A stretch of DNA of 25,069 nucleotides, taken from IMG/VR virus record IMGVR_UViG_3300025671_000481, positions 1 to 25,069 of that record; one strand, 5' to 3'. The notes under the pieces were generated by a model. It saw only the letters and a list, made by a program, of their open reading frames with translations. It did not search any database and was not told the DNA's origin. This document shows, piece after piece, positions 365 through 19,900 of the stretch (the first letter of the stretch is position 1; each line of letters begins with the position of its first letter). Both the position numbers and the translations under genes were made by a program. The DNA is from a virus.

Positions 365-367
365 TGT

Positions 368-375
368 AATAAATA
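368..375 (+). promoter_or_regulatory. T4-type late promoter for gp25-gp6 and downstream genes
   Basis: The octamer AATAAATA lies 4 bases after the stop of the 84-residue gene. It matches the NATAAATA form of the T4 late promoter (TATAAATA), which is read by host RNA polymerase with the phage late sigma factor gp55. By analogy with T4, transcription would start about 6 bases downstream, near 381. That leaves a leader of about 20 bases before the GTG start of gp25. Confidence 0.7.
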
Positions 376-400
376 ACTTCAAGTATTCTTGTATATTACT

Positions 401-802: not shown

Positions 803-2848
803 ATGCCTTTAGTCAATTTTAGCAACTTAGACTTTGATCAGATAAAGACTTCTATTCAGGATTACCTGAAGACGAATTCAAACTTTACTGACTATGATTA
901 TGAAGGGTCTAATCTTTCCACCATTATTGATCTGTTAGCATATAACACATATATCACTTCATACAACGCCAACATGGTGACGAATGAGGTGTTTATTGAT
1001 AGTGCTACCTTGAGAGAGAATGTAGTTTCTCTTGCAAGGAATATTGGTTATGTCCCTAGATCCAGAAAAGCAGCAGTAGCAAATATTTCATTCTCTGTAG
1101 ATGTATCAAATACAACTGCAGTTACCGTTACTTTGCAGGCGGGATTAGTTCTGACTACATCCAATACATTTGGTAATACAAGTTATACATTTTCAATCCC
1201 ATCAGACATTACAGTTCCAGTTGATTCTACAGGGACTGCATACTTTAATGATATTGATGTCTATGAAGGATCTTTCTTACAGCAAAAATTTACAGTAAGT
1301 TCTAGAACACCAGATCAAAAATATATCTTAGGTAATGGTGGCATTGATACCTCACTGATCAATGTTACAGTAAGAGAATCGGCAACATCATCGGTTCAGA
1401 GAAAATACAGACAGTCCGATAGTTTGTTCGATATCACCGCTACATCGCCCGTATACTTCCTCCAAGAGGTCTCTGACGAGAGATATGAACTCTTGTTCGG
1501 TGACGGTGTGTTTGGTATCAAACCTGAAGAACCCAATGTAATCGTTGCAAATTATATTGTCACTAGTGGTGAGAGTGGCAATAATCTTGCTAACTTCTCT
1601 TTCTCTGGTTCATTAGTTAGTAACAATGGATCGGTAGTAACAAACGGTATCTCAATTGTTACTACTAACCAATCATCTTACGGCGGTAAGGCAATTGAAT
1701 CTGTAAATTCTGTCAAGAAGTATGCTACTCAAATCTATGCTTCTCAGAATAGAGCAGTAACAGCATCTGACTACGAGGCAATTGTTCCAAACATCTATGC
1801 TGAGACAGAATCAGTTTCTGCCTTTGGTGGTGAAGACCTTTCACCTCCTGCATATGGTAAAGTATTCATTAGCATCAAACCATATAATGGTGTGTTTCTT
1901 TCTTCTGCCATTAAGCAAAACATTCAGTCAGCATTAAAGCAGTATAGTGTTGCAGGTATTGTTCCTGAAATTGTTGATCTAAAATATCTCTACATTGAAA
2001 CTAATTCAAGTGTTTATTATAATACAAACTTAGCATCTAGTGCTGCAAATCTAAAAACGATTATTTCTGAAAATATTGTAAATTATTCGGATTCAACCGA
2101 ACTCAATAAATTTGGTGCAAGGTTCAAGTATAGTAAATTCCAAAAAATTATCGACGACAGTCAAGAGTCAATCACTTCTAACATCACAAATGTTGATATC
2201 AGAAGAGACATGGAAGCAAAACTGAATCAGTTTGCTGAGTATGAGATTTGTTATGGAAATAGATTCTATGTGAAAAATCATGGACACGGAACTTACAGTG
2301 GACAAGTGAGTTACAATATCAAATCCTCTGGTTTCACAGTTAGTGGTATTAGTGGAACAGTTTATCTTGGTGATCAAGCAAATAGTGATTTAGAGACAGG
2401 TTCTGTATTTCTCTTTAAATTAGACTCAGATACTCAACCAGTTATTGTTAAAAGAAATATTGGAACCATTGATTATAAAAAAGGTGAGATTAAGTTGAAC
2501 CCCATCAACATTATCTCAACTAGAGTTGTGAAGAATGGAACATCATTTGTTGAGATCTCTGCCTCACCATATTCTAATGATGTGATTGGTCTTCAAGACC
2601 TATATTTGCAATTAGATAACTCAAATGTAGTTGTCAATGTGATCCAAGATAACATTTCTTCTGGTAATGATATTTCTGGAAGTAACTATAAAGTTTCTTC
2701 TAGTTACGCAAATGGAAGTCTGGTTCGTGGAACACCAGTTCTAGTCACAACAGACACAAATACTACTTCTGGAACTACGGTAAATAGTAGTAGTTCTAGT
2801 GCTACCAGTTCTAACACTGGTTCTAGTGGTTCCAATTATTCTTACTAA
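803..2848 (+). CDS. gp6: Baseplate wedge subunit gp6
   Basis: Gp6 forms the ring of dimers that joins the six baseplate wedges, and its C-terminal core belongs to the phage P2 gpJ-like fold. The product is 681 residues, against 660 for T4 gp6. The N-terminal region is typical: an amphipathic start (NLDFDQIKTSIQDYL), then YDYEGSNLSTIIDLLAYNT, then VFIDSATLRENVVSLARNIGYVPR (about residues 8-90). The middle carries the gpJ-like stretch YELLFGDGVFG (about residues 228-238) and ASDYEAIVPNIYAE (about 320-333). The last 33 residues are a Ser/Thr-rich low-complexity tail. The gene follows gp25 without a gap and is separated from the giant downstream gene by 14 bases. It shares the gp25 late promoter, since no promoter motif lies immediately before it. 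Confidence 0.93.
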   Translation: MPLVNFSNLDFDQIKTSIQDYLKTNSNFTDYDYEGSNLSTIIDLLAYNTYITSYNANMVTNEVFIDSATLRENVVSLARNIGYVPRSRKAAVANISFSVDVSNTTAVTVTLQAGLVLTTSNTFGNTSYTFSIPSDITVPVDSTGTAYFNDIDVYEGSFLQQKFTVSSRTPDQKYILGNGGIDTSLINVTVRESATSSVQRKYRQSDSLFDITATSPVYFLQEVSDERYELLFGDGVFGIKPEEPNVIVANYIVTSGESGNNLANFSFSGSLVSNNGSVVTNGISIVTTNQSSYGGKAIESVNSVKKYATQIYASQNRAVTASDYEAIVPNIYAETESVSAFGGEDLSPPAYGKVFISIKPYNGVFLSSAIKQNIQSALKQYSVAGIVPEIVDLKYLYIETNSSVYYNTNLASSAANLKTIISENIVNYSDSTELNKFGARFKYSKFQKIIDDSQESITSNITNVDIRRDMEAKLNQFAEYEICYGNRFYVKNHGHGTYSGQVSYNIKSSGFTVSGISGTVYLGDQANSDLETGSVFLFKLDSDTQPVIVKRNIGTIDYKKGEIKLNPINIISTRVVKNGTSFVEISASPYSNDVIGLQDLYLQLDNSNVVVNVIQDNISSGNDISGSNYKVSSSYANGSLVRGTPVLVTTDTNTTSGTTVNSSSSSATSSNTGSSGSNYSY

Positions 2849-2862
2849 GTAGCAGTCGATAA

Positions 2863-5800
2863 ATGGCAGTAGATAGAGTCAAGTTCCAGGACATTGTTGC
2901 TAGTCAACTCCCTGACTATGTAAAGGAGGACTTTCCTCTCCTTACAGATTTTCTGCAGCAATATTATGCTTCACAAGAATTTGAAAGTGGAACATATGAC
3001 CTGATTCAAAACCTTGATCAGTATGTGAAAGTTGATGAGTTGTCTAGACTGACAACTTCTACTGTCTTACTGAATGACATCTCTTATACTGACACAACCA
3101 TTGCAACTTCTGCGAATGGAAACTTTACTGAAGGATTCCCAGAAACCAATGGTTTGATCAAAATTGATGATGAGATCATCACCTATGAGTATAAGACAGA
3201 TTCCTCGTTTGTTAACTGTACAAGGGGTTTCAGTGGCGTTACAAGTTACGTTGGGACTAATACCCCCGATGAGTTGGTATTTACTTCTACAGAGGCAAAT
3301 ATACACAAATCTGGAGCAACTATCTCCAATCTGAATATTCTATTCCTTCAAGAGTTCTTTAAGAAACTCAAGTATCAGGTCACTCCTGGTTTTACTGAAA
3401 GACAATTATATTCAGGTCTTGATCAAAGAAACTTTGTCTTCAATGCAGATAGTTTCTATAAGTCAAAAGGAACAGATCAATCATTTGAGATTCTGTTCAG
3501 AGCATTGTATGGTGAAGATGTAGATGTAATCAAACCAGCAGAATATTTGCTGCGTCCTTCTAATGCAGATTATAAAATCACTCAAGATCTGGTAGTTGAA
3601 CAGATTCTAGGTGATCCTCTTCAACTTCAAAATCTGACTCTGTTCCAAGACTCTACAGGCGCTAGAGGTTCTGTAACTAATGTTGAACAGATTCAGTATG
3701 ATCAAGGTCAATATTATCAGATTTCTATTGACTATGGTTATCAAAGAGACATTGATGTAACAGGAACAGTTTATAGTAGTTTCAAACCAAATTCTCAGAC
3801 AAAGATTCTTACAGGAGTTTCTGCAGGTTCATCAATCATTGATGTAGATTCTACTGTTGGTTTTGCTGCAACTGGTAACCTCATTGCTAAAGATGCTGAT
3901 GGTGATGATGTCCTCATTCAATATCTTGATAAGAATGATAACCAGTTCTTATCAGTTAGTGGCGTCACCACATCTCTGACTAAAACCACTGACATCAGAT
4001 TTGATGACTATTCATATGCTTATGTTGGCATTAATACCTCAGAGCAAATTCAGGTAAGAATTAGTTCAACACTGAAAGATATCAAGTTTGATGGGTCACC
4101 CTACTACTACAAAAAGGGCGATACCATTCAACTTCAGTCTATTGGTATTGAAGATTATAAAGAGCAGTCGAAGAATTGGTTCTTCAATGTAAAAACCAAT
4201 TGGGAAGCAGCAAGTGTTTCTGTTATTGACGCAACAGAAAACTCTTATGAGATCAATACATATGATCCACACTTCTTGAAGGTTGGATATGATATTCTTC
4301 TTACAGATGTAACTGATGGAAGCAACTATAGTGGAAGTGTTAGTGTTGTTAGATCTTCAACATCACTGATTGTCAACCTTACTACTTCTATTAATGTTGC
4401 CCATTCATTTGAAATTGAAAACCAGTTGTTGAAGGGATACTCCACTAAGTATTCTCAAATTGGTAATTTTGTTGCTAATGTTCAAAACACATACACAGAT
4501 TTCTCTGAGAATGTAATTGTAGCATCAAACTCGCTTCCACATTATGAGGCACCTGCTAATCCTTATGATAAAAAGGTAACCTTTAGCGGAACATTTACAT
4601 CCACAAAAGAAATCCAGTTAACAACTTCTACTGATCATGGTTTCTATACTGGAGACGCTATCTGGTATAAGCCATTTGTAACCAAAACAACTACCACAAC
4701 TCCAAGTGGTGCACAGATCGTCACCACAACCACAAACAGTTTTGAAGGTGTCGATGCTGGCATTTACTACATTAAGAGAGTTAGCTCTACAACTGTTAGT
4801 ATTGCCAGAAGTAAGGCAGACTTGTTCTCTGCAAGTTATGTTACTTTTAATGGAACAGTTACCAATAACCAGTTCATTTACTATGACTTTTATCTGAAGA
4901 CTGTTCAACCTCAGAAGATTTATAGAAATATTCTTCCACCTGTCAATAAGAGTGGTGAATATAAGACAACACCAGGTTACAGTGGTATCTTGGTAAATGG
5001 TGTTGAGATCTTAAACTACAAGTCTACTGACTCAGTTTTGTATGGTGACATTCAGTCATTTGAAATTGAGAGGGGTGGACAGAACTATGATGTCATTACA
5101 CCACCAGAACTCTACATTACCGATGAAGTAGGAACAGGAGCAACAGGTAAATGTTGCGTAACTGGTCGTTTGGAGAGGATTGATATTATCAGTGGTGGTT
5201 TTGATTATGTTGGCACACCTACTGTAAGAATCAGTGGTGGTAATGGTAAGGATGCTGCAGCAGAAGTCAACATGTCTGCTATCATCCACTCAGTATCATT
5301 TGCTGCCAATTCGACTGATAGAGTAGACACAACTGCAGATACAATTGGTTTCACAACCTATCACAACTTTGGTCAAGACGAAAGAGTCATTTATAATGCA
5401 GGAAATGAAACTAAGGTTGGCGGTCTCTCTACAGAAGCGTCTTACTATGTTGGAGTAGTTGATAACTTTACGGTCAAACTCTATACTACACCCTCTGATG
5501 CTAGCGCTGGCATCAATACTGTCAATTTGACATCTCTGGGCACTGGACTACAAACACTGAAGTCTGCTACAAGAAAGAATGTCATTACCAATATTGTAGT
5601 AACTAATCCTGGTAGTGGATATCAAAATAAGCAGAGAACTATTCCAACTGCTGGTGTAAGCACTTCACTCAATCAGTTCACTATCACGAATCATGGTTAT
5701 AATTCAAAAGAGATTGTAGGATATGCTGGAACCAATATCATTGGTCTGTCTACAACTAAGGACTACTATGTTGTCAAGGTAGACAATAATACCTTCTCAC

Positions 5801-8800
5801 TGTCTGAAGTTGGTGTAGGATCGACTGCAACAGATTACTACTATGATAATGGTATCCTTGTAAATCTTCATAGTGAAGGATCTGGAAACTTTAATTATAA
5901 ACCAATCACAGTTTCTGTTGAGGGAACAACAGGCATTTCTACAAGAGCAGGTCAAAGTTTTGCTGCTGTTGTTCAACCAGTCTTTAGAGGAACTATTGAA
6001 TCTGTCGATCTAACAAGTGCTGGTGTTGGTTATGGTGCATCGGAGATCATCAACTTTAATAGGCAACCAAGCATCACTTTCAGAAGTGGTGAAAATGCAG
6101 TATTGGTCCCTGTCATCAACAATGGAAGCATTTCAGAGGTCATCATCAATAATGGCGGAGGTGGTTACAACTCTCCACCCGACTTGGTAATTAATAGTTC
6201 TACTGGAAACTATGCTAGATTGACACCTATTATTAGAAACGGTGCAATCGTAGATGTTAAGGTAATTAATGGTGGTATTGGTTACCACAATCAAACTTCT
6301 ATCAATGTTATCCCTGCGGGTTCAGGAGCAATTGCTGCTGCAAATATCAGATCCTGGAATATCAATCTCTTTGAGAGAAACTTTAATAACATTACAACAG
6401 ATGATGGTTTCCTTGATGAAAACATTGATGACACCTCTCTTGAGTATTCACACGTCTATGCAGCAAGACAACTAAGAAGAGCAGTTTACTCTGTATCAGG
6501 TTCTGATGCAGACAATTCTCTCTATGGAAATCCAGACCTTGTTTTGGATGACAATGTAGAGGTAGATAGTGAATATCACTCACCAATCATTGGATGGGCG
6601 TATGATGGCAATCCAATCTATGGTCCATTTGGTTTTGCACAAAACACTGGTGGTTCTGTAAGAAGAATGTTGTCTGGTTATGAAACACAAGCAAATGCAG
6701 CAAATAGACCTCCTCTCACAATCTACCCTTCTGGTTTCTTCATTGAAGACTTTACTTTTACAGGGACTGGAGACCTTGACCAACACAATGGCAGATTCTG
6801 TGTAACACCAGATTATCCAAATGGTGTCTATGCATACTTTACCACTATCAATAATAATGTAGACTCTGATGGACCATTTAAGAATTATAAGAGACCTATC
6901 TTCCCCTATTTGATTGGTGACTCTTATAAGTCTGAACCAAATCCATTCAACTTCAGACTTAGATCAAATCAAGAGTTCTATGACATTCAAAAGTCTGGTC
7001 TCCTGAGAAACACTGCAGAGTATCATACCAATGATACTAAGAGTGGTTATGATTATATCTTTAACTCCAACACAGTTCAAAAGCAAGTAATTGATATTAC
7101 AGCAACATCTACTGGTTCAATTGAGCAAGTAGGAATTCTAACTGGTGGCATCAACTATAGAGTTGGTGATAAGATTGATTTCAATAATGGAAATACTGGT
7201 GGAAGAGATGCTGATGTCAAAGTCTCAAGTATTCTCGGTAAGACTGTTTCTAGTGTTAGTGTTGCAACTACAACCTTCTACAATGTAGAGTTCATTAGAA
7301 ATGGTGGTTCTTATCTTGGATTTACTACCTCTGCTCCTCACAACTTAGAGAATGGAGATACTGTCCAGATCTCTGGCATCTCTACATTCTTCAAAGGTTT
7401 CAATGGAAGTTACACTGTAGGTGTTAGAAGTGATAACTTTGTTTTGACACTAGGTGTTGGCGCTACAGCAACCACTGGAGAGGTTGCATACTTCTACGTT
7501 TCAGGACCTCTTACATATCCAAACATCAGAGTCAATGACATTCTTCAAATTGAAGATGAAAGAGTTAAGGTTCTGAACATTGATTCTGCATCACAAAGAA
7601 TCAGAGTTCTTAGGGCACAAGATGGCACTCTTGGAGTTGCACACACCAACAGAGAGATTCTCCTTGAGGATCCTAAAAAATTCACTGTAAACATTGGTGG
7701 TCTTACAACAACCAAGTCATACACTCTGAATGATCAGTTGTATTATGATCCAGCAGAATCTATTGGTGTAGGCACCGTAGCAGTTGCTGGTGCTGGTAAG
7801 ACTGTAACCTTCTCAAATCCTGGAGTTGGAGCAACTCAAGTCTTTGTTCCTATTCAGTCGATTTACTATCCCAACCACCGTTTGAGTCTGAATGAAGTTA
7901 TCACCTACAATACTAATGGCGGTCAAGCATCTCAGGTTTGGAATGGTGTAACAGGAGCTGCATTCACTTCTCTCAATAGTTTCAATTCTCTCTATGCTGT
8001 TCCAATCTCAGAAGATCTGATTGGCATTAGCACCAATAAAGTTGGTCTTGGAACTGTTGGTTACGTCGGAGTCAATACATCACTCTCACTACTTTACTTC
8101 ACAGGTAACATTGGAACAGGAAACACTCACAGTTTTACCACAAACAGAGTCAATGTAATCTCTGGTCAGGTTTCACAAAACATTGTGACAGTTTCAACTG
8201 CAACCACTCATGGTCTGACAGGCAATGATACTGTAACAATCTCTGTAAAACCAACTTCAACAAAAACAGTTAAGGTCAAGTATAACAAATACAATAGAAG
8301 AATTGTATTTGATCCAAGAGACTTCTCTTCAAGCGATATTAATCTTACCCTTAACACAATTGGTTTCGGCACAGAATATTTTGCTCTTGGTGATAGAGTA
8401 ATCTATACATCTGATTCACCATCTAGTGGTCTTGTCAACCAGGGAATGTATTATGTCATTCCTTATAATGAAACTCAAGTTCGTCTGGTCACTGAAGAGT
8501 TTGAGTTAAATGCTGCAGAACCAAATTATGTTAACATTGGAACTGCATCAACTGGAACACTCTCTAAGATTAATCCAGTAGTCAAACCAAGTAGAAATAA
8601 CTCACTGGTGTTTGACTTGTCAGACTCCTCAATGTCATTCTTCAATAATAATGTAAATTACTCTGCCTTTGACTTTAACATCTATTCGGACAAGAAGTTC
8701 ACAACAGAATTCTTGACTTCTGGTGAGTCAAGCACATTTGAAGTAACAAAGAGTGGAACCATTGGTGTTGACACAACTGCAAAGGTCACTCTGTCAGTCA

Positions 8801-11800
8801 GTGATTATATTCCACAGAATCTCTTCTATAAATTTGTTCCAACAAATCTGAATATTATTCCAGATGTTCAAAGTGAAATTGTTATTGATGATACTGTAGC
8901 GAACTACAATGAAATCGAAGTGGTTCCCACTGAATATGATGGCACATACACCATATCTGGTGTAGGAACAAATGCCTTTACATACAATATTCCAAACAGA
9001 CCTGGTGTCACTACATACACTTCTTCAAACTCAAAGACAACCTATGAGACAAACTCCAAGTCTGCATATGGTGCCATCACCAAGTTTAAGGTCTTTAATG
9101 GTGGTTATGATTACAAGACTCTGCCAGGTATTACCTCAGTAATCACTGCTACTGGATCTGGAGCAATTCTGCAACCAAGTAGCACAAGCATTGGTAGAAT
9201 TCTGGACACCAGACTGAACAATATTGGTTTTGAATATCCTTCTGATGAGACAGCAAGATTGGTTGCTAATCTCCCCGAAGTCCTCAAGATGAATCTGCTT
9301 GCTTCCTTTGAGAGCATTGGCATTACTTCTGGTGGTCAAAATTATCTTGTAGCACCACAGATTGTTGTTATTGATGGTTTCACAAATCAAGTAATTACTG
9401 ATCTGGATTTGAGATATGAACTTGGAGATACACAAGTTTCTATTATCAAGAACACTTCTGGAATGTATAATACACCTCCCAGAATCCTTCCAACCAGCAA
9501 CTCTAATGGCGTTGGAATTTCTTCTCTGACTTATACTTCTGGAACAAAGACTGTTAGACTTTTCCTTGACGCTGAATTCAGTAATAATGAAGACTTCCCA
9601 TACGAAGTTGGCGAAAATATTATGGTTGAGAATATCAGTGTTGGTATCAACTCTACTGGAAAGGGTTACAACTCTAAGAATTACAACTACTCATTGTTCC
9701 CAGTAACTGGTCTGAACACTGCTTTAGGTGGATCGGGAGCATATGTTGAATATAGTTTGGCAGATTACCTGACTGGCAGTCAGTTCCCTGGAAACTTTGA
9801 TTCTGGAAACTCTGCAGGTAGAGCAATTCCGCAGAAACAGTTCCCAGTATTTGATCCCGTTCTTAAGATCAATAACTTCTCCCAAAATGAAGTAGTTAAG
9901 AATGGTAAAAACAAAGGAACTGTCGAAAGATCAGATCAACTTAGTGAGTATCTCTTTGTAAGCACTCCAAAAGAGTTTGTTGTTGGAACCAAGGTTATTG
10001 GCGAAAGTTCTAATACTCAGGGTGTCATTGAAGAAAAGACAAACTTTAATGCACAAGTCATTACTGGAGCAGGTGCAACAGTTTATGATGGATGGCAAAC
10101 CAATTCTGGTTTCCTGAATGACAATTTTCAGAGAATGCCAAACAATGAGTATTATCAGAATCTCTCATACTCACTTAAGGCCAAGGTTCCTTATGAAACC
10201 TGGAATGATCCTGTCAGTGCACTGAACCACACTGCTGGTTTTGCTAAGTTTGCAGACTTTGTTATTGAAAGTATTGAGGATAGACCTGGAGGTATTGCTT
10301 CCCCAGAAGATAGCAATGTTGAAACTGTTGTTGATATCACCAGTTTTGGTTACCTCAACTGCTTCTCCGATTTTGATATCGTAAGTGAAGTTACAGCAAA
10401 TGCTGATGGAACAATTGTTTCAACTGAGATTGTATTTGATAATACTATTCTCAATGATTACTTTAAGTCAATTGGAAATAGAGTTCTTACTATTGATGAT
10501 TTCAGTGGTTCATTCAATAGCAATGAGAGACCAGAACCTTATGAACCAATTGCATCTTATCCAACAAATTATGTTTACAACAAACTGATTACCTTTGCTA
10601 AGGATGCTTCTCTTGATGATGAGAAGCAGGTAAGTGTTATATCTCTTCTCCAAGATGGGACCGAAGGTTACTTCCAACAATATGGATTAATTGAAGCAGG
10701 AGCAGAACTTGGTTATTATGATTACCTTCCATCCTCTGGCGGTTTTGATGTAGTCTTCTATCCAGAAGATTATCAATATAGCAGCTACGATACTGCTACA
10801 GTGTCATTCAATGCCCTTGATAATATTGTTGGTGTTGGTTCTACTAATATTGGTGAAGTAACACTGATCAATAGTTATAGAACAGCAATTGCTGCAGGTG
10901 TATCCACAACTATTGTTGCAATCGGATCATCCTTCAGAACATCCAAACTTTTGGTTCAAATTGAAGATGCTGCCAACTCTAAGTTCACCGCTTCAGAACT
11001 CAATTTGATTCATGATGGAACAAACGTATTTGTTTTAGAGTATGGTGACTTGCAAATGAGTGATACTCCAGACTTTACTGGGTTTGGAACATTCAGTGCT
11101 AGAATTGATGGTTCCAATATCTTAGTTGACTTTAACTCAAATGTATCTGTTGCATTGACTGCAAATACTAATGTAGTATCAATTTCAAACACATCTGTTG
11201 TAGGCGTTTCTTCTGTAAATCTTGATGTATGCGACATTGTTACTTACAAAACTGACATTGCTGCTTCTGCATCGCCAACAGCAAATACAATTGCAGAATT
11301 CAGATCACCAATTGAAGCATCTTACTTCATTGTTTCAGTTGAAGACATGACAAACTCACAGTTTGAAATGTTTGAAGCAATCACTCTTGAAGCAACTGTG
11401 AATGAAGATTCTATTGTTGAGTATGGAAATGTATTTACAGGAAGTGATAATCTTGGAACTGTTGGTTTTGATACTGCAGGTGGCAATTATCAGTTGACAT
11501 ATACACCAATTGCAAATGCAGAAATGCAAGTTAGAGTTTACTCTATGCAGTTGTTCGTCTATGATATGAATGATAATGCTACTGGCATTAGTTTTAATAA
11601 TACTGTAATTGATACTGATCGTCAAAAGTATAATGGGTCTCTTGCAGATGTCAAGACATCATTCGGTCTGACGCACAATGGTTTGAATATCTTCCAGAGA
11701 AGTTTTGATGGAAGTGATTCTGGAATTGTTGATATCACAAAGAACTTCATTAAGATCCCTGAGCACTTCTTTGTCACTGGCGAAAAAGTCTACTACAACT

Positions 11801-14800
11801 GGGCAGGTGCAGGAACAACACAAGCAATTGGTATTGCAACCACAACAGTTCCTGGCATCGGTAATACTGACAAACTTCCAAATGAATTGTATGTCGTTAA
11901 AGAGAGTGATCTGAACCTCAGATTTGCTTCTTCTGCACAAAATGCTCTGGCAGAACCTCCAAATACATTTGTAGTTAACTCTGTTGGTATTGGAACTTCT
12001 CATAGTATCACAGCAACTAATCAAAATCCAAAAGTGATCGTTGCTATTGATAATATGATCCAGTCGCCAATTGTTTCTGCGGGTGTTACTGCAGCACTTG
12101 ATCAAAACATCATCTTTAATACTAACTTTGCACTAACTGGAGTTACATCCATATTTGCACAAGATCTTATCCAAATTGATGATGAGATTATGATTGTTGT
12201 TGCTGTTGGTGTTGGTGGCGCAAACAATGTTGTTGTAAGAAGAGAACAGTTGGGAACATCTCTTGCTTCTCATGGCATTGGCGCTCTTGTAACAAAACTT
12301 GGTGGCAACTATAATATCGTTGACAATACTCTTCACTTCACAAGTGCACCATATGGTAATACACCAGTTGGCGTAGCTGCAACTGTTGATCCTGATGGTG
12401 TTGATTGGTCTGGTATTACAACCAGTTCTACTTTCCAGGGTAGAATGTTTATGAGATCTGGTGTCAAGGGTTCTTCTGATGAGACTTATTCCAAGAACTA
12501 TATCTTTGATGACATCACAAATCAATTTACAGGCATTCAAAGCACCTTTACACTGACATCTAGTGGAAGCACTGTTACAGGAATTGCAACAGACAATGCT
12601 GTAATTCTGATCAATGGCATCTTCCAGAGTCCACAAGGTGTTCAACCTATCAATCTTCAACAGGGTGATTATACACTTGAGGAGAGTGGAATTACAACTA
12701 TCAGGTTCACTGGAAATGGTGACGATCCTTATGGTTATGATCCAAACAGATCAGACCTTCCTCAAGGTGGTCGTATGGTCACAATTGGTAGTACTGAAGG
12801 ATTTGGTTATCAACCTTTGATTTCTGCAGGAGCAACAGCAACTGTCTCTGTTGCTGGAACTATTCAAACAATTAGTATTGGTAACAGTGGTTCTGGTTAT
12901 AGAGCAGGAATTCAGACTGTAGTCAATGTTGGAGTTCAGACTTATAGTGATGATGTTCCTAACATTGAATTCATCGGCACTGCTGCAATTAGTGGTGGTA
13001 ACATTGTAAGCGTTGCTATCACCAATCCTGGAGCAGGATATACCAGCACCAATCCACCACTGGTCGTATTTGATGATCCACTTCCTTATTCAAATGTTCC
13101 TCTGGTTTATAGTTCTGAGTCCCCTGTAGGTGCTGGTGAAAGTGGCACTGTAGACATTACAGTTGGTCAGGGTTCTAGTGTAATCAACTTCTCAATCGTT
13201 GATTATGGTTTCAACTACAAACCAGGTGATATTCTGACAGTCAATGTCGGTGGAGCATCAGGCATTCCAACTGATACTACTAAGACATTTGATGAATTCC
13301 AAATTACAGTTGAAGAGTCATTCTCAGACCAATTCAATGGTTGGGCAATTGGTCAACTTCAAGTTCTTGACAGCATTGCTGATCAATTTGATGGAACACA
13401 AACCACCTTTGCTCTGAAGTTGGGGGGTGAACCATTCTCTGCAACAACTGATGCAGGATCTCCAATCATTCTTGAAGATACTCTGCTTGTCTTTATCAAT
13501 GACATTCTGCAGAATCCAATTACTTCTTATGACTTTAATGGTGGCAGTAAGATTAGATTTGGAACTGCACCAAAAGCAGGTGATAGTTCTAAGATCTTCT
13601 TCTACAAAGGAACTGGTGATGTTGACGTTGTATTTGTAGATATTCTTGAAACCATCAAGGTTGGCGACACCCTTGATATCGACAACAATCCTGCAAAGGG
13701 TCAGGGAATTGCACTTGATCAAGATCCAAGAACTATAGTTGGCATCAATACTGTTGATAGCGTCAATACCAACCCATATTCTGGTCCTGGAGTTACAACT
13801 GACAGATCTCTGTTCAGACCCGTAACCTGGTGTAAGCAACTCACAGATAAGATTATTAATGGACAGAAGATTGGCAAGGATAGAATAGAATATGAACCTA
13901 ACATTTATCCTGCTTCCTATATCCTTAAAAATGTTGGCGTTACTACACAAACATTATTTGTTGATAGTGTAAGACCACTATTCAATAGTAATAATGAAAC
14001 CAACTTCAGAGATTTCCAGAATGCAATTACCATTACATCACAAGATACAGTAATCTCTGCTGCAGCAACAGCAGTTGTCTCTGCTGCTGGAACAATTTCT
14101 TCACTGGTAGTTGGCACTGCTGGTGCTGGTTACACTGCAACACCTACAGTATCAATTGCTGATCCTGTAGGAGGCGCTGTTACTGCAACTGCGACTGCAA
14201 CTATCAGCAATGGTTCTGTTACGTCACTGACCGTTACTGGCGCAGGTGCTGGTTATACAAGCACAAATGCTCCTGTTGTTCTTATTGAAACACCAAGTGT
14301 AGTTGTTGAAGACATTGACGTTACTTCATATGTTGGCGATTATGGAGTGATCGTTGGTGTTGGAACCACAGTCGCTGCTTCACAAAATCAATTCTACTTT
14401 GATACATTCATCTCTCTTGATTCCTTCATGAGAGACGCTAATGTCGTAGGAACTGCTGTTACAGTTAGTGGCATCTCAACTGCCAACTATCTGACAATAT
14501 TTAATACTAATATTAGCATTGGTAGCACATTTGCGTCAGAGGATGAGAGTGGAGCATCTATTGGTATTGGAACAACCTTCTTGGATTGTGTATATAAAGT
14601 TGATAGTTTTGAGGATAATGACATCTTCATTAGTGCAGGATCCACCATTGGATTCACAACTACTTGCAGAAGAGTATTTGTTAATGTAGATACTGTTGGA
14701 AGTGGAATTGGTTACACAAATCTTCCTGATATGGGTGACTTTAGTTGGGGCATTATTAATCTTCAAAGAAGATCAGATGCTCAAGAATTCAACTTCTATG

Positions 14801-14883
14801 GTGATAATGGTTACACTGGCATTTCAACCTCTGCTCTTGTAACTAGAAGTGCTTCCTTGAAGTTTAAGAATTATACATCTTAA
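2863..14883 (+). CDS. Giant modular virion structural protein (4006 residues), YHYH-like domain
   Basis: An uninterrupted 12-kb frame encodes a probable baseplate-periphery or fibre-like protein of T4-like cyanophages. Its exact role is unknown. The N-terminal 300 residues look like the family core: FQDIVASQLPDYVKEDFPLL at the start, SFYKSKGTDQSFEILFRALYG near residues 197-217, and IKPAEYLLRPSNADYK after it. The rest is a chain of diverged beta-rich modules. GxGY repeats lie near residues 733-805, 1047-1162, 3314-3470 and 3729-3816. 'HG...YYV' modules lie near 589, 829, 939, 1489, 1829 and 2964. Two 'VED..NS.F' copies lie near 2687-2766 and 2811-2901, and two 'iNgilQ' copies near 3215-3290 and 3504-3585. 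A YHYH-like domain at about 1200-1340 contains GWAYDGNPIYGPFG and DLDQHNGRF. No transmembrane segment or catalytic triad is visible. The C-terminus (DMGDFSWGII near 3961-3970) is distinct from the repeats. The ATG has no Shine-Dalgarno sequence. Confidence 0.88.
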   Translation: MAVDRVKFQDIVASQLPDYVKEDFPLLTDFLQQYYASQEFESGTYDLIQNLDQYVKVDELSRLTTSTVLLNDISYTDTTIATSANGNFTEGFPETNGLIKIDDEIITYEYKTDSSFVNCTRGFSGVTSYVGTNTPDELVFTSTEANIHKSGATISNLNILFLQEFFKKLKYQVTPGFTERQLYSGLDQRNFVFNADSFYKSKGTDQSFEILFRALYGEDVDVIKPAEYLLRPSNADYKITQDLVVEQILGDPLQLQNLTLFQDSTGARGSVTNVEQIQYDQGQYYQISIDYGYQRDIDVTGTVYSSFKPNSQTKILTGVSAGSSIIDVDSTVGFAATGNLIAKDADGDDVLIQYLDKNDNQFLSVSGVTTSLTKTTDIRFDDYSYAYVGINTSEQIQVRISSTLKDIKFDGSPYYYKKGDTIQLQSIGIEDYKEQSKNWFFNVKTNWEAASVSVIDATENSYEINTYDPHFLKVGYDILLTDVTDGSNYSGSVSVVRSSTSLIVNLTTSINVAHSFEIENQLLKGYSTKYSQIGNFVANVQNTYTDFSENVIVASNSLPHYEAPANPYDKKVTFSGTFTSTKEIQLTTSTDHGFYTGDAIWYKPFVTKTTTTTPSGAQIVTTTTNSFEGVDAGIYYIKRVSSTTVSIARSKADLFSASYVTFNGTVTNNQFIYYDFYLKTVQPQKIYRNILPPVNKSGEYKTTPGYSGILVNGVEILNYKSTDSVLYGDIQSFEIERGGQNYDVITPPELYITDEVGTGATGKCCVTGRLERIDIISGGFDYVGTPTVRISGGNGKDAAAEVNMSAIIHSVSFAANSTDRVDTTADTIGFTTYHNFGQDERVIYNAGNETKVGGLSTEASYYVGVVDNFTVKLYTTPSDASAGINTVNLTSLGTGLQTLKSATRKNVITNIVVTNPGSGYQNKQRTIPTAGVSTSLNQFTITNHGYNSKEIVGYAGTNIIGLSTTKDYYVVKVDNNTFSLSEVGVGSTATDYYYDNGILVNLHSEGSGNFNYKPITVSVEGTTGISTRAGQSFAAVVQPVFRGTIESVDLTSAGVGYGASEIINFNRQPSITFRSGENAVLVPVINNGSISEVIINNGGGGYNSPPDLVINSSTGNYARLTPIIRNGAIVDVKVINGGIGYHNQTSINVIPAGSGAIAAANIRSWNINLFERNFNNITTDDGFLDENIDDTSLEYSHVYAARQLRRAVYSVSGSDADNSLYGNPDLVLDDNVEVDSEYHSPIIGWAYDGNPIYGPFGFAQNTGGSVRRMLSGYETQANAANRPPLTIYPSGFFIEDFTFTGTGDLDQHNGRFCVTPDYPNGVYAYFTTINNNVDSDGPFKNYKRPIFPYLIGDSYKSEPNPFNFRLRSNQEFYDIQKSGLLRNTAEYHTNDTKSGYDYIFNSNTVQKQVIDITATSTGSIEQVGILTGGINYRVGDKIDFNNGNTGGRDADVKVSSILGKTVSSVSVATTTFYNVEFIRNGGSYLGFTTSAPHNLENGDTVQISGISTFFKGFNGSYTVGVRSDNFVLTLGVGATATTGEVAYFYVSGPLTYPNIRVNDILQIEDERVKVLNIDSASQRIRVLRAQDGTLGVAHTNREILLEDPKKFTVNIGGLTTTKSYTLNDQLYYDPAESIGVGTVAVAGAGKTVTFSNPGVGATQVFVPIQSIYYPNHRLSLNEVITYNTNGGQASQVWNGVTGAAFTSLNSFNSLYAVPISEDLIGISTNKVGLGTVGYVGVNTSLSLLYFTGNIGTGNTHSFTTNRVNVISGQVSQNIVTVSTATTHGLTGNDTVTISVKPTSTKTVKVKYNKYNRRIVFDPRDFSSSDINLTLNTIGFGTEYFALGDRVIYTSDSPSSGLVNQGMYYVIPYNETQVRLVTEEFELNAAEPNYVNIGTASTGTLSKINPVVKPSRNNSLVFDLSDSSMSFFNNNVNYSAFDFNIYSDKKFTTEFLTSGESSTFEVTKSGTIGVDTTAKVTLSVSDYIPQNLFYKFVPTNLNIIPDVQSEIVIDDTVANYNEIEVVPTEYDGTYTISGVGTNAFTYNIPNRPGVTTYTSSNSKTTYETNSKSAYGAITKFKVFNGGYDYKTLPGITSVITATGSGAILQPSSTSIGRILDTRLNNIGFEYPSDETARLVANLPEVLKMNLLASFESIGITSGGQNYLVAPQIVVIDGFTNQVITDLDLRYELGDTQVSIIKNTSGMYNTPPRILPTSNSNGVGISSLTYTSGTKTVRLFLDAEFSNNEDFPYEVGENIMVENISVGINSTGKGYNSKNYNYSLFPVTGLNTALGGSGAYVEYSLADYLTGSQFPGNFDSGNSAGRAIPQKQFPVFDPVLKINNFSQNEVVKNGKNKGTVERSDQLSEYLFVSTPKEFVVGTKVIGESSNTQGVIEEKTNFNAQVITGAGATVYDGWQTNSGFLNDNFQRMPNNEYYQNLSYSLKAKVPYETWNDPVSALNHTAGFAKFADFVIESIEDRPGGIASPEDSNVETVVDITSFGYLNCFSDFDIVSEVTANADGTIVSTEIVFDNTILNDYFKSIGNRVLTIDDFSGSFNSNERPEPYEPIASYPTNYVYNKLITFAKDASLDDEKQVSVISLLQDGTEGYFQQYGLIEAGAELGYYDYLPSSGGFDVVFYPEDYQYSSYDTATVSFNALDNIVGVGSTNIGEVTLINSYRTAIAAGVSTTIVAIGSSFRTSKLLVQIEDAANSKFTASELNLIHDGTNVFVLEYGDLQMSDTPDFTGFGTFSARIDGSNILVDFNSNVSVALTANTNVVSISNTSVVGVSSVNLDVCDIVTYKTDIAASASPTANTIAEFRSPIEASYFIVSVEDMTNSQFEMFEAITLEATVNEDSIVEYGNVFTGSDNLGTVGFDTAGGNYQLTYTPIANAEMQVRVYSMQLFVYDMNDNATGISFNNTVIDTDRQKYNGSLADVKTSFGLTHNGLNIFQRSFDGSDSGIVDITKNFIKIPEHFFVTGEKVYYNWAGAGTTQAIGIATTTVPGIGNTDKLPNELYVVKESDLNLRFASSAQNALAEPPNTFVVNSVGIGTSHSITATNQNPKVIVAIDNMIQSPIVSAGVTAALDQNIIFNTNFALTGVTSIFAQDLIQIDDEIMIVVAVGVGGANNVVVRREQLGTSLASHGIGALVTKLGGNYNIVDNTLHFTSAPYGNTPVGVAATVDPDGVDWSGITTSSTFQGRMFMRSGVKGSSDETYSKNYIFDDITNQFTGIQSTFTLTSSGSTVTGIATDNAVILINGIFQSPQGVQPINLQQGDYTLEESGITTIRFTGNGDDPYGYDPNRSDLPQGGRMVTIGSTEGFGYQPLISAGATATVSVAGTIQTISIGNSGSGYRAGIQTVVNVGVQTYSDDVPNIEFIGTAAISGGNIVSVAITNPGAGYTSTNPPLVVFDDPLPYSNVPLVYSSESPVGAGESGTVDITVGQGSSVINFSIVDYGFNYKPGDILTVNVGGASGIPTDTTKTFDEFQITVEESFSDQFNGWAIGQLQVLDSIADQFDGTQTTFALKLGGEPFSATTDAGSPIILEDTLLVFINDILQNPITSYDFNGGSKIRFGTAPKAGDSSKIFFYKGTGDVDVVFVDILETIKVGDTLDIDNNPAKGQGIALDQDPRTIVGINTVDSVNTNPYSGPGVTTDRSLFRPVTWCKQLTDKIINGQKIGKDRIEYEPNIYPASYILKNVGVTTQTLFVDSVRPLFNSNNETNFRDFQNAITITSQDTVISAAATAVVSAAGTISSLVVGTAGAGYTATPTVSIADPVGGAVTATATATISNGSVTSLTVTGAGAGYTSTNAPVVLIETPSVVVEDIDVTSYVGDYGVIVGVGTTVAASQNQFYFDTFISLDSFMRDANVVGTAVTVSGISTANYLTIFNTNISIGSTFASEDESGASIGIGTTFLDCVYKVDSFEDNDIFISAGSTIGFTTTCRRVFVNVDTVGSGIGYTNLPDMGDFSWGIINLQRRSDAQEFNFYGDNGYTGISTSALVTRSASLKFKNYTS
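5053..5262 (+). repeat. GG-x-x-Y repeat pair 1 in the giant protein
   Basis: Two in-frame copies of a roughly 35-residue beta module are seen. The first has IERGGQNYDVITPPELYI and the second IISGGFDYVGTPTVRISGG. Each has a hydrophobic strand, a Gly-Gly-x-x-Tyr turn, a Pro-rich link and a second strand. They are the first members of a repeat family that recurs later in this gene and in gp8 and the 2484-residue protein. Confidence 0.65.
6001..6345 (+). repeat. GxGY tandem repeat block 2 in the giant protein
   Basis: Three consecutive copies carry the signatures LTSAGVGYGASEIINF, INNGGGGYNSPPDLVI and VINGGIGYHNQTSINVI. Between them run the connecting strands ENAVLVPVINNGSISEV and YARLTPIIRNGAIVDV. 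The unit is about 38 residues long, and the pattern 'I.NG.I..V.I.NGG.GY..PP.L.I' repeats clearly. The DNA copies are diverged, so these are old duplications. Confidence 0.75.
10921..11565 (+). repeat. Duplicated VED/EYG module in the giant protein
   Basis: Two copies of about 80-90 residues lie at roughly 10921-11160 and 11293-11565. They align as TSKLLVQIEDAANSKFTASE with ASYFIVSVEDMTNSQFEMFE, then VFVLEYGDL with DSIVEYGNV, then FTGFGTFSARIDGSNILVDF with NLGTVGFDTAGGNYQLTY. The shared pattern is beta-rich. An intervening stretch (VVSISNTSVVGVSSVNLDV) separates the copies. Confidence 0.7.
12802..13266 (+). repeat. GxGY repeat block 3 in the giant protein
   Basis: Four turn motifs are spaced along the block: GFGYQPL, GNSGSGYRAGI, NPGAGYTSTNPPLVVF and DYGFNYKPGDIL. 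The linker ATVSVAGTIQTISI is closely matched at the start of the next block. Spacing is irregular because extra strands lie between the third and fourth motifs. Confidence 0.7.
14047..14310 (+). repeat. GxGY repeat block 4 in the giant protein
   Basis: Two copies, TAGAGYTATPTVSIADP and GAGAGYTSTNAPVVLIETP, are joined by a strongly Ala/Thr-rich linker (VTATATATISNGSVTSL). Bases 14053-14100 match bases 12820-12867 at 38 of 48 positions, so part of this block is a copy of block 3 or shares a recent source with it. Confidence 0.72.
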
Positions 14884-14913: not shown

Positions 14914-15330
14914 ATGGCAAAACAGTTAGTTGGTATCGGCACCACTATTAATGATGGCACGGGCGATAGTCTGCGTGTAGGTGCTGATAAAATCAACGAC
15001 AATTTTAATGAAATTTATAATGTAGTAGGTAATGGAACCACGACTTTTGTTGGCATTGTTTCTCAGATTACTGCAGGAACAAATGTAAGTGTTTCAACCG
15101 CTTTTGGTTCCGTTGAGGTTGGTGTTTCAACAACTCCAAGTTTTACTTCAATCGTGGTCGGTTCGGCAGTAACAGGCAACTCTAGTGGAGTCAATGTTAC
15201 TGGTGTAATCACTGCTACTGGTGGTTTTGTAAGTGTAGGAAATACTACTCCTATTCAAATTACTCTTTCGGGAAGTGTCTTGACATTTACTGCAAGTGGG
15301 ATTGGGTCAACCAGCTTTACATTATCCTAA
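14914..15330 (+). CDS. Small virion structural protein with NDGTGD adaptor motif (138 residues)
   Basis: The N-terminus reads VGIGTTINDGTGDSLRVGAD, followed by KINDNFNEIYNVVGNG (about residues 6-42). This 'NDGTGD.LR.G..KIN.NF.EIY' motif is known from the N-terminal ends of phage tail-fibre and other virion proteins, where I infer it is an attachment segment. The remainder is Thr/Ser/Gly/Val-rich and beta-like, with short repeats such as VGVSTTPSF, ITAGTNVSVST and SGIGSTSFTLS, and no receptor-binding domain is evident. The likely role is a small baseplate or fibre-associated protein, but the precise function is unknown. An AGGA sequence sits at 14909-14912, only one base from the ATG, which is closer than a normal ribosome-binding site. 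The gene lies between the giant gene and gp8, with a promoter-like motif on each side. Confidence 0.78.
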   Translation: MAKQLVGIGTTINDGTGDSLRVGADKINDNFNEIYNVVGNGTTTFVGIVSQITAGTNVSVSTAFGSVEVGVSTTPSFTSIVVGSAVTGNSSGVNVTGVITATGGFVSVGNTTPIQITLSGSVLTFTASGIGSTSFTLS

Positions 15331-15355: not shown

Positions 15356-16915
15356 ATGGCAGCGATAATTACTGACCAACTTCGTATTTTGAATGCAAAG
15401 AATTTTGTCGCTGGGGTTCAATCCAGTTCAAATTCTTATTACACATTCATTGGCATCCCTAATGCTTCTGATTATCAATCTGACTGGGACACAACTCCCC
15501 CTTCTCCTATTGATAACTTTGAGCAGATCAATAATACATATTGGGACGGAATGCTGGCGCTGAAGAAGATTGCGCCAAGTGATGTAAGTCAGGTTGTTAG
15601 AAAAGCAACTTGGGCATCAGGTGTGACTTATGATATGTGGAGGAATGATATTAGCAGAAACAACCCTTCACAACCATCGGGTGTTTTTAATATCTATGCT
15701 GCCAATTATTATGTAATGAACTCTGACTATAGAGTTTATGTTTGCCTCTTTAATAATGCTACCCCCGAAAACAATTATCAAGGTGGTCCTTCACTAGACG
15801 AACCTACCTTTACAGACTTGGAACCAAGATCTGCTGGTTCCAGTGGTGACGGTTATATCTGGAAGTATTTGTATACCATCAGTCCTTCACAGGCAATTAA
15901 GTTTGATTCAACAAACTATATTCCTGTTCCTTCCGATTGGAATACAAATGCCACCTATGCACCAGTTAGAAATAATGCTGCAGCAAGTGGTCAACTCAAG
16001 ATTGTAACAATTAGAAATAGGGGTGTTGCACTTGGTGATCCAAATAAAACTTATACTGGAGTTCCTATTCTTGGCGATGGTGAAGGTGCTACAGCAACAG
16101 TTGTAGTTAACAATGATTCTCAAATAGAAACTGTTACGGTTTCTAAGGGTGGTTCAGGTTATACATTTGGAACTCTTGACCTTGTGGCAGGTGGAGTTCC
16201 TGCAGGAACTACTGCACCATCCTTTAATGTTATCATTCCACCTCCAGGTGGTCACGGTGCTGACATCTATAGGGAGTTAGGAGCATATAATGTTCTGACA
16301 TACTCCAGATTTGAAAATGATACCGAGAATCCAGACTTTATTACTGGTAACCAGTTTGCTGCAGTTGGTCTTCTTGAAAATCCATTAGCATACAATTCAA
16401 CCTCTAAATTGAGTTTGGATAAAGCAAGTGCTCTTTATGCACTTAAGTTGACTGGAACTGGTTATAGTTCTGCATCATTTACAGCAGACTCTGAAATCAC
16501 ACAAACTGTTGGTCTTGGATCTACTGCTGTTGGTAGAGTCGTCTCTTATGATCAGTTGACAGGTGTTCTGAAGTATTGGCAAGACTTCTCTCTTGCAGGT
16601 TTCAACACCGATGGGTCTGCAAATACAGATCCAGAATATGGTTTCAACTTGAATAGATTCACTGCAGATATTAACTCTGGAGGCAGTTTCACCATTCTTG
16701 GTGGAAGCACAAATCTGGCAATTCAAACCAGTTTCCAAGGTGTCTCCACGGTAATAAATAGTAGGACATATTACCTCGGTCAGACTTTTGTAGATGGTGT
16801 TTCTCAACCTGAGTCTGAGAAATACTCTGGAAACATGATTTACATTGACAATAGACCCTCTGTTACAAGGTCTTCAGCTCAGAAAGAAGACGTAAAAATT
16901 ATCTTGCAGTTCTAA
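15356..16915 (+). CDS. gp8: Baseplate wedge subunit gp8
   Basis: In T4, gp8 is a dimer in each baseplate wedge that links gp10, gp7 and gp6. The product has 519 residues against 334 in T4, so it is enlarged, as I recall is common in cyanophages. The N-terminal part carries the family pattern: VQSSSNSYYTFIGIPNASD (about residues 21-39), then a Trp-rich stretch with WASGVTYDMWRNDIS, then YRVYVCLFNN. The best T4 match is SGDGYIWKYLYTISPSQ (about residues 163-179) with TNYIPVPSDW after it, corresponding to T4 DGYVWEYLFEIPP and EYIVVPWPEE. A GxGY module (VSKGGSGYTFGTLDLV, near residue 260) is inserted before GGHGADIYRELGAYNVL. The gene has its own late promoter but no Shine-Dalgarno sequence. It is followed after 6 bases by the DUF4815-type gene. 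Confidence 0.93.
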   Translation: MAAIITDQLRILNAKNFVAGVQSSSNSYYTFIGIPNASDYQSDWDTTPPSPIDNFEQINNTYWDGMLALKKIAPSDVSQVVRKATWASGVTYDMWRNDISRNNPSQPSGVFNIYAANYYVMNSDYRVYVCLFNNATPENNYQGGPSLDEPTFTDLEPRSAGSSGDGYIWKYLYTISPSQAIKFDSTNYIPVPSDWNTNATYAPVRNNAAASGQLKIVTIRNRGVALGDPNKTYTGVPILGDGEGATATVVVNNDSQIETVTVSKGGSGYTFGTLDLVAGGVPAGTTAPSFNVIIPPPGGHGADIYRELGAYNVLTYSRFENDTENPDFITGNQFAAVGLLENPLAYNSTSKLSLDKASALYALKLTGTGYSSASFTADSEITQTVGLGSTAVGRVVSYDQLTGVLKYWQDFSLAGFNTDGSANTDPEYGFNLNRFTADINSGGSFTILGGSTNLAIQTSFQGVSTVINSRTYYLGQTFVDGVSQPESEKYSGNMIYIDNRPSVTRSSAQKEDVKIILQF

Positions 16916-16921
16916 AAAATC

Positions 16922-19900
16922 ATGCCACAGGAAACTAACCTCAACGTTGCTCCTTATTTTGACGACTTTGATCCACAGAGTAACTATTATAAGGTCCTCT
17001 TTAAGCCTGGATATCCTGTTCAGGCAAGAGAACTAACTACTCTTCAATCAATTCTTCAAAATCAAGTTGAGGATGTTGGTAATCACCTCTTTAAAGAGGG
17101 AGCACAGGTCATTCCTGGTGGCGTAACTTACCTGAATCCATTCTATGCCATTCAAATTGAGTCAGAATTCCTCGGAATTCCTGTTTCGGTCTATCTGGAT
17201 CAGTTAGTTGGCAAAACAATTACTGGTGAAACCTCTGGAATCACCGCAAAAGTGGTCACTTACATCACTGATGAGCAGTCTGAGAGGAGCAATTTCACAC
17301 TTTATGTTGATTATTTTGAGTCGAGCAGCACAGATTTGGCAACTTCGCAGTTTTTGGACAATGAAGTCCTGCTGACAGACGAAAATATTACCTTTAGCAC
17401 CACTTTTATTGCTGCTGGAGAAGGTTTTTCGAGAACAATTGCTACAAATGCTGCTGCAACTGCCTCTGCATTTGCAATCAATGACGGAGTTTACTTCCTG
17501 AGAGGTTATTTTGTTGATGTTTACTCGGATTTGATCATTTTAGATCAATATGGTGATACTCCAAGTTATAGAGTTGGTCTAAATGTCGTAGAATCCATTG
17601 TTTCTTCGGATATTGACCCCTCTCTGAATGATAATGCTCAGGGTTATAACAATTTTGCTGCTCCTGGCGCTGATAGACTGAAAATTACAGCAACTTTATT
17701 CAAAAAAACCATTGATGACCTTAATGATCAGAGTTTTGTCCAACTCGCAGAGGTCAAAAATGGTGTTCTGAGAGATATTGTCACTGCAACTGATTATAAT
17801 TTACTTGGTGACGAACTTGCAAAGAGAACTTTTGATGAATCTGGTCATTATTATATCAAAGAGTTTGTATCCACTGTAAGAGAGAGTCTGAATAACGGTT
17901 TTGGCAATAGAGGTGTCTATAATGCCAATCAAACAACAGATGGTGGACAAACTCCAAATGACAATCTTGCCATTTACAAGATTTCACCTGGTAGAGCATA
18001 TGTAAGAGGATATGAAGTATCCAAAAAGGCATCTACTTTCTTGGATGTTCCAAAACCAAGAACTACAAATCTGATTGAAGGTCAGTCAGTCAATTTTGGT
18101 TTTGGTCCAACATTCTCAGTCAATAGAGTTTTTGGTTCTGCTACAATTGGATTCAATACAACCAACACTTTGAGTCTGAGAGACCAAAGAGTCGGTGGAA
18201 CACAAACTACAAGACCTGGTAATGAAATTGGTGTTGCTAGAATCTATGATTTTGCCCTTGAGTCTGGTTCATATGATACTACAACTCCAGATCTGAATCA
18301 ATGGGACCTTTCTCTCTTTGATGTTCAGACATATTCTGATGTAACTGTCAATGAAGCAGTTACACTTACCACTCCAACCTTTATTCAGGGTCAATCTAGT
18401 GGTGCTAGTGCATTCTTGAGATTTGATGTTAGTGCTGGAACTGCTCTGACTGCATATGATGTTCAAGGTGACTTCTTCATTGGTGAAAGACTTCTCTTCA
18501 ATGGTGTAGATACCAATGCAAGATCAGTTACAAACCTGACAAATAACGAACTGTCTAATGTCAAGTCCGTTTTTGGTATTGTTGGTAGTGGAACAACATT
18601 TAGTGCTGATTTGATCCAGTATCCAGTCAGAACCATTGGTATTGCATCAATTACTGCTGCAAGTGGTGGCATTTCAACAGTATCTTCACCTGGTTTCACA
18701 TTCCCAGGTATCGTAACAACTGGTGGTTTGGTTCAATACTCAATTCCCACAAATAGTATTCCTTCCTTTGGTAGAGTAACAGGAGTCAATAATTCTTCCT
18801 TCACTATTGAGGCGGTTACAACTGTTACTGGTTTCAGAGACGGTGCACTTCCTACCTCTGCAACTGAAGTTACCGATCTTACTACTGTTGAGTCAAAATA
18901 TCAGAGAAATGCTGGAAGTGGCAATGCTTCTTCAAATGCAACTCTGTTTAGCAGATTCCCCAAGAGCAATATTTCCTCTGTAGATCTGAATGGTGCAAGT
19001 ATTGTAGTTAGAAAACAATATAGCACAACTATTACTAATAACTCAACTGCAACTCTCTCTGCAGGCACTGATGAAGTCTTCCTGCCATTTGATGAAGAGA
19101 GATACATTGTTATCAGGTCTGATGGTTCAACAGAAGCACTGACTGCAGATAAGTTTGATTTTACAAGTGGTTCAACTCAACTAACAATTAATGGTCTTGG
19201 TGCCAATGATAGCGGCACTGTTGTAATTGCAACTCTTAGAAAGAGTCAAGTTACTGCAAAGACTAAGAGAAAGTTTGTTGCTAATAGTTTGATCGTTGAT
19301 AAGTCTTCTGTTTCTGCTTCTGGAACAGGATCAACCACTCTGAATGATGGTCTGACATACGGCACATTTGCATTTGGAACAAGAGTTCAGGACCCTGTTA
19401 TCTCGTTGAATGTTCCTGATGTTATCAAGATTCATGGTGTATTTGAGTCTAATGACACAACTACTCCTGTTGCACCATCAATGATTGCAGGATCAATGGA
19501 TGGTCCTACCGCAACAACAAATGACCTTATCATTGGTGAAGAGATTGTTGGCACAATTAGTGGTGCAAGAGCAACATATCTTGTAAGAGTCAATGATACT
19601 AATATCAGATTTACTTATAAGAATAATACGGTTTTCCAAAATGGTGAAGTAATTAACTTTGTTTCTTCTGGTGTAAGTGCTGTTGCTAATAGCATCAATA
19701 TTGGAAGCAAAAATGTTACATCAGACTTTACTCTCTTCAATGGTCAAAAAGATTCAATCTATGACATCTCAAGACTGGTAAGAAAACCAAATTCTTCTGC
19801 ACCTTCTAGAAAACTTGTAGTTTACTTTGATAATGCATACTATGAGTCTTCAGATACTGGAGATATCACACTTGCAAATTCATACACTGACTTCAACTAT

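Follow-up and report, generated by a model that had tools for sequence, protein, structure and literature searches.

A giant cyanophage baseplate wedge protein, probably the counterpart of T4 gp7, with a chain of anciently duplicated domains

The 4006-residue product (hereafter the giant) of a 12-kb frame in a 25,069-base virus record, the whole of which was analysed and is called the window, is probably the cyanophage counterpart of T4 gp7, in which a gp7-type head in the baseplate wedge would carry an arm of anciently duplicated domains at the periphery. Few marine viruses are as abundant as the T4-like cyanophages, yet the literature on their gp7 is contradictory, in that genomes list a 'baseplate wedge initiator' whereas one paper holds the protein to be absent and replaced by VrlC. 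The giant belongs to a known family and is of typical size for it, and this copy is itself of less interest than the still unsettled build of the cyanophage baseplate. With the trifurcation core connecting the giant to gp7, and homologues of roughly 500 up to 6600 residues at a single locus, there is a clear test of how this baseplate and its outer part are built. In the window the operon order is gp25-gp6-giant-(gp9/10-like)-gp8-VrlC, with the giant between gp6 and gp8, as for a gp7-type wedge subunit; the genes concerned are the following.

389–802, plus strand: gp25 homologue (GPW_gp25, 3.8e-16)
803–2848, plus strand: gp6 homologue (PHROG 219, 654 bits; Gp6 Pfam domains), the presumed partner of the giant's core
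2863–14883, plus strand: giant, probably gp7-type, baseplate wedge gene, 4006 aa (open frame; PHROG 2885; 22 contigs)
15356–16915, plus strand: gp8 homologue (PHROG 438, 519 bits; Phage-Gp8)

The initial annotation, made from the sequence alone, had described a single open 12-kb frame encoding a modular virion protein larger than any T4 baseplate protein, and this description holds. Open-frame analysis of the window gave 4006 uninterrupted codons at 2863–14883 (plus strand, stop included). A contig of another metagenome is 99.2% identical to the window over the first 14.0 kb, and a long frame occupies the gp6–gp8 position in 22 of 22 IMG/VR contigs (independent metagenomic viral contigs, picked for a long downstream stretch), with 4000–4302 codons in 20 of them. 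This shows the frame to be genuine and undivided; the 4006-residue protein exists and its gene is correctly delimited. That an assembly or sequencing error had fused separate genes, the objection raised by the annotation itself, might be argued from phages B23 and S-SSM7, which devote two genes to the giant, and from the several frames of the S-SKS1 record; it has practically no probability left, being already refuted by the one uninterrupted frame in 22 independent contigs and in many isolate genomes, as well as by the nearly identical second assembly.

Along its chain the giant is colinear with PHROG 2885 ('baseplate wedge subunit', 4179 positions), residues 4–3360 matching positions 8–3355 in one long block (3661 bits), followed by a separate C-terminal match at positions 4040–4178. 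A near DNA search against phages matched only 0.1-kb pieces, and isolates were therefore compared as proteins. The product of the gene between gp6 and gp8 has 4337 residues in RN05-S, 4307 in P-TIM68, 4156 in S-SM2, 4067 in both Bellamy and SynMITS9220M01, 4120 in S-SCSM1, 3884 in S-CAM9, 4314 in S-CAM7, 5195 in P-SSM2, 4446 in P-HM1, 6076 in syn9 and 6171 in S-SSM5. Among the isolate genomes read, the single-chain giants range from 3884 to 6171 aa; 4006 aa is an ordinary size among them, and giant forms are normal in these viruses. The proteins of Bellamy, SynMITS9220M01 and S-SCSM1 align with the giant in a single full-length BLAST alignment at 37–43% identity. Relatives in isolates are annotated as 'gp7 / baseplate wedge initiator', and those of this name (Bellamy gp111, P-TIM68 gp086, S-SM2 gp7, P-SSM2 gp7) share with the giant the locus, the size (3884–5195 aa) and the module order, with 29–49% identity along most of the chain; the giant differs from these PHROG 2885 proteins only in sequence and in a few insertions or replacements past residue 2550. 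Short homologues occupy the same locus in non-cyanobacterial phages, namely HTVC008M (1016 aa), phiM7 (1006 aa), Ochrobactrum OC (631 aa) and IME-SM1 (503 aa), so that the sequences compared here span 503–6171 aa. These short proteins share the N-terminal core with the giant, whereas nearly all of the arm is missing from them.

The identity of the head was approached with a profile built from 35 relatives over the first 379 residues, and two parts of this region are listed here.

2863–3042, plus strand: N-terminal helices, residues 1–60 (helices H8-38 in a low-confidence model; conservation)
3310–3732, plus strand: trifurcation region, residues 150–290, with the beta domain that follows (profile matches to gp7; Foldseek)

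Against PDB sequences the head profile returned two matches only, KP1-type gp7 at 728–814 (E 3e-5) and T4 gp7 at 727–758 (E 6e-5), and the reverse search with T4 gp7 as query found PHROG 2885 at positions 196–224 (E 1.3e-4). In Foldseek the predicted N-terminal model ranked gp7 first and second (E 5e-4 and 7e-3), the model being of low confidence (pLDDT 68.6, pTM 0.34) and the TM-scores low (0.15). From these gp7-only sequence matches, the Foldseek ranks and the locus, the giant is therefore read as cyanophage gp7. By sequence, the trifurcation region of T4 gp7 has its homologue in the N-terminal 290 residues or so of the giant; thus the core of about 300 residues noted initially is confirmed by profile and conservation, and the function, then thought not to be readable from the sequence, is readable in part. 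Residues 1–60 and the part around the KGT motif (residues 202–204), which in the trifurcation region of gp7-type proteins reads KGT or KGI, form the most conserved stretch of the giant. The head profile matches the N-termini of the gp6–gp8 proteins of HTVC008M, phiM7, Ochrobactrum OC and IME-SM1 (E 1e-14 to 1e-23), in which the helices and the KGT region are both N-terminal, and residues 1–60 themselves are matched in HTVC008M, Ochrobactrum OC and IME-SM1; they would correspond to the core-bundle helix that pairs with two gp6.

The relation to T4 gp7 is confined to a shared stretch of about 30–90 residues, and the whole giant as query had no match among PDB sequences, so that slices and profiles were needed. 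The Pfam families PF21427, PF21428 and PF21456, present in T4 gp7, are absent from the giant and from its slices; they belong to the T4 form and were not used as a criterion for the wider gp7-type subunit, membership of which therefore rests on the locus and the trifurcation core. Both proteins have the gp6–gp8 gene position and the trifurcation region in common, but in T4 gp7 (1032 aa) the shared part, 727–814, is near the C-terminal end, whereas in the giant its counterpart is at 150–290 and the rest of the chain is downstream. As far as the sequence can be followed, nothing observed would derive the extension from other domains of T4 gp7.

This assignment disagrees with a published account, according to which gp7 is absent from pelagi- and cyanomyophages and replaced by VrlC (PMC7029224). 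If that were so, VrlC would fill the role of gp7 and the giant would be an unrelated structural or receptor-binding protein, and VrlC is indeed found in the same operon in most of the relatives read. The VrlC of the window (16922–24376), a DUF4815 protein of 2484 residues encoded just past gp8, is related to the structurally solved ORF65, which is likewise a DUF4815 protein (9euf, E 6e-43) and not to gp7; DUF4815 is confined in the window to 16922–24376, and the giant has no VrlC/DUF4815 homology. The gp7 core profile, which matches the giant and the short homologues, gave no convincing match in the VrlC of the window or of HTVC008M, in T4 gp6 or gp10, or in shuffled proteins. Furthermore, VrlC and the gp7-core protein occur together, adjacent in the operons of HTVC008M, phiM7 and cyanophages. 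A replacement of gp7 by VrlC is on these grounds improbable, and the relationship to 9euf may help to place VrlC within the cyanophage baseplate.

Downstream of the head, the assignment to gp7 leaves a long modular extension. The orthologue profile, built from 11 sequences, was cut into ninety-residue slices for comparison with the complete profile; this gave 98 off-diagonal self-matches of probability ≥80, with none in the column-shuffled and none in the reversed controls. The matches cover 1989 of the 4006 residues, about half of the chain; the repeats reported initially are therefore real, and the 'some 3500' residues assigned to them are about twice the demonstrable extent. They group into at least six families, named I, T, G, J, X and F, which the module HMM scan found in the order I I T G T T G G (YHYH) G J T T G X X X T J F G F G, shuffled proteins giving no matches. 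All copies listed below, together with the conserved end of the chain, are on the plus strand and, except where noted, were identified by self-match and module HMM.

3046–3252, plus strand: module I copy 1, residues 62–130, small beta domain inserted in the core (self-match with 306–372, probability 93–95)
3778–3978, plus strand: module I copy 2, residues 306–372 (profile self-match, module HMM)
4558–4857, plus strand: module T copy 1, residues 566–665, beta-barrel-like
5035–5286, plus strand: module G copy, residues 725–808, 'GxGY' beta repeat
5269–5559, plus strand: module T copy 2, residues 803–899 (also FCCH-like Foldseek matches)
5614–5898, plus strand: module T copy 3, residues 918–1012
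5971–6372, plus strand: module G, two overlapping copies, residues 1037–1170
7513–7689, plus strand: module J copy 1, residues 1551–1609
7798–8100, plus strand: module T copy 4, residues 1646–1746
8251–8589, plus strand: module T copy 5, residues 1797–1909
9049–9342, plus strand: module G copies, residues 2063–2160
10549–11538, plus strand: module X, three copies, residues 2563–2648, 2669–2760 and 2792–2892, plastic zone
11692–12036, plus strand: module T copy 6, residues 2944–3058
12139–12318, plus strand: module J copy 2, residues 3093–3152
12502–12711, plus strand: module F copy 1, residues 3214–3283
12808–13080, plus strand: module G copy, residues 3316–3406
13363–13563, plus strand: module F copy 2, residues 3501–3567
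14041–14385, plus strand: module G copies, residues 3727–3841
14383–14880, plus strand: conserved C-terminal segment, residues 3841–4006 (PHROG 2885 positions 4040–4178, E 1.8e-20)

The C-terminus is distinct, as had been noted, yet conserved, and in B23 a separate gene ends with it. A structure model of residues 700–1400 (pLDDT 83.8, pTM 0.72) shows module G at 725–808 as long paired strands (pLDDT about 90); its best viral structural match is the Bellamy orthologue, and Foldseek against the PDB gave nothing below 1e-3. The T-type modules at residues 803–1012 and 1489–1519 bear a weak likeness, in sequence and fold, to the FCCH domain of the ubiquitin-activating enzyme E1: Foldseek matches to Uba1 had probabilities of 0.5–0.9 over about 140 columns, and weak Pfam E1_FCCH matches below the cut-off agree with them, so that FCCH is a possible fold of module T. 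Matches to a mitochondrial complex I subunit (residues 700–1400, profile E 0.023) and to a coronavirus domain (Pfam E 0.11) were taken as chance.

The initial annotation had suggested growth by repeated internal duplication, and the giant is indeed built in part in this way; what did not stand is that the expansion is recent. A lineage-recent enlargement would accord with the genuine internal repeats. The module order and count are, however, common to the near relatives of about 4000 residues, with small differences that mostly concern weak G copies, and orthologues of equal size and order, named initially as the finding that would remove the idea, do exist. In every module family orthologous copies are on average closer (mean identity 34–53% among near relatives) than paralogous copies within the window (22–42%), and the gene contains no tandem DNA repeats, the longest direct repeat being 52 nt at 71%. 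Taken together, the shared order, the closer orthologues and the lack of tandem repeats imply that the duplications predate the split of these phages and are ancient rather than recent; for this phage group a recent expansion is already refuted and has almost no probability left.

Module exchange does occur, as had been supposed, but it is concentrated past residue 2550, at about 2550–2930, 3350–3400 and 3740 and at a split point at about 2890–3120. Thus S-CAM9 is without the X zone, P-SSM2 has about 1080 extra residues near 3360, and RN05-S about 290 near 3740. The PHROG 701-type giants of syn9 and S-SSM5, which share the locus and the gp7 core, are larger than that of the window, and in them this core is interrupted by about 500 residues that separate its helices from the KGT region, with G repeats in the syn9 insert; the syn9 giant has YHYH, G and F modules like the window, and T or X modules were not found in it. 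In B23 (21896–33675) the giant is two adjacent genes of 2845 and 1081 residues, and in S-SSM7 (21876–40970) 3007 residues are followed by a fibre-connector gene and then by 3001 residues, both splits corresponding to window residues of about 2890–3120. They are natural evidence that the two halves, head and tail, need not form one chain. The S-SKS1 orthologue (21898–34290) extends over several frames, partly unannotated in the RefSeq record, through either error or real splitting.

The extension also contains the YHYH-like domain.

6526–6858, plus strand: half YHYH domain, residues 1222–1332, with the YHYH motif missing (PF14240, 89.4 bits)

The PF14240 match is real (89.4 bits against a curated cut-off of 25), yet it extends over positions 78–185 of 193 only, so that the domain named initially is present as its C-terminal half, the motif half with its histidines being missing. 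Two bacterial proteins with a whole-model match carry NAHxQPxGxYHYHG about 25 residues ahead of the ADG motif; this stretch, or [YF]H[YFV]H, is absent from the window and from every orthologue examined, and the aligned relatives have, instead of the YHYH motif, an invariant histidine in HSPIIGWAYDG. YHYH domains were predicted to be zinc-binding, zinc-dependent hydrolases from conserved histidines and an aspartate (PMC7824862), and on our reading it is the missing half that held the histidines in question. The absent motif argues against scoring the YHYH copy of cyanophage gp7 as a zinc-dependent hydrolase, and the half-domain would be a structural or binding domain in the arm rather than a metal-dependent hydrolase. 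Almost all cyanophages have it (463 phage records with a match to the half-domain, 469 with a match to the head), and none of the few Pelagibacter and Methylophilales records with a head match is among the YHYH-matching records; a role linked to cyanobacterial hosts is possible.

In T4-type baseplates each of the six wedges combines gp7 with two copies of gp6. By analogy, the head of the giant would pack with two gp6 copies per wedge unit, giving six chains per baseplate, and, more speculatively, the extension of about 3700 residues may project outward at the edge of the baseplate, in the form of a long beaded arm, and supply the peripheral and host-contact functions of T4 gp10, gp11 and gp12. 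The genes g10, g11 and g12 are reported missing from cyanomyoviruses (PMC2984593), which suggests a peripheral arm in their place; some cyanophages retain an adjacent gp9/10-like gene, and the replacement of gp10 is therefore incomplete. Module X is similar to a portion of the gp9-type fibre connector family (PHROG 967, about residues 2682–2760, E 2.8e-8), which would fit an arm that holds fibres. Annotated relatives, counted as such by annotation and position, have been detected in purified virions, namely S-SZBM1 ORF208 (6619 aa, 71 peptides by mass spectrometry of CsCl-purified virions; PMC9146016) and S-CREM2 ORF122 (about 1937 aa from its coordinates, 91 unique peptides; PMC10665884). The literature searched contained no solved baseplate structure for a T4-like cyanophage. 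The full picture, a periphery rebuilt on one wedge protein, in which six gp7-type chains with beaded arms and a dead YHYH half-domain form an outer ring in place of gp10, gp11 and gp12, is put forward tentatively, at somewhat less than an even chance. If it holds, one locus ranges from about 500 to more than 6600 residues across the T4 superfamily.

It is also conceivable, though rather unlikely, that the giant is a long fibre or fibre-like protein attached to the wedge and lengthened chiefly to recognise the host, the gp7-like head serving only to anchor it. The annotation of syn9 gp101 as 'putative fiber', the YHYH domain with its repeated beta modules, and the connector likeness of the X modules all point in this direction. 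The arm is, however, colinear and nearly constant in length among relatives, unlike fast-changing fibre tips, and no trimeric fibre signature was found in the giant; fibre Pfams are absent from it and from its slices, the PHROG 967 likeness being confined to module X. Moreover, the variable fibre-like gene at this locus is the neighbour at 14914–15330.

This 138-residue frame, in the gap between the giant and gp8, contains both ends of the RN05-S fibre-connector protein (444-residue class), namely residues 1–77 and about 344–443, with the middle missing, and is an internally shortened rather than a truncated connector. The interval between gp7 and gp8 is 19–40 nt in five IMG/VR contigs and 2.0–2.2 kb in three, so that a fibre-connector gene seems to be present in some close relatives and absent from others.
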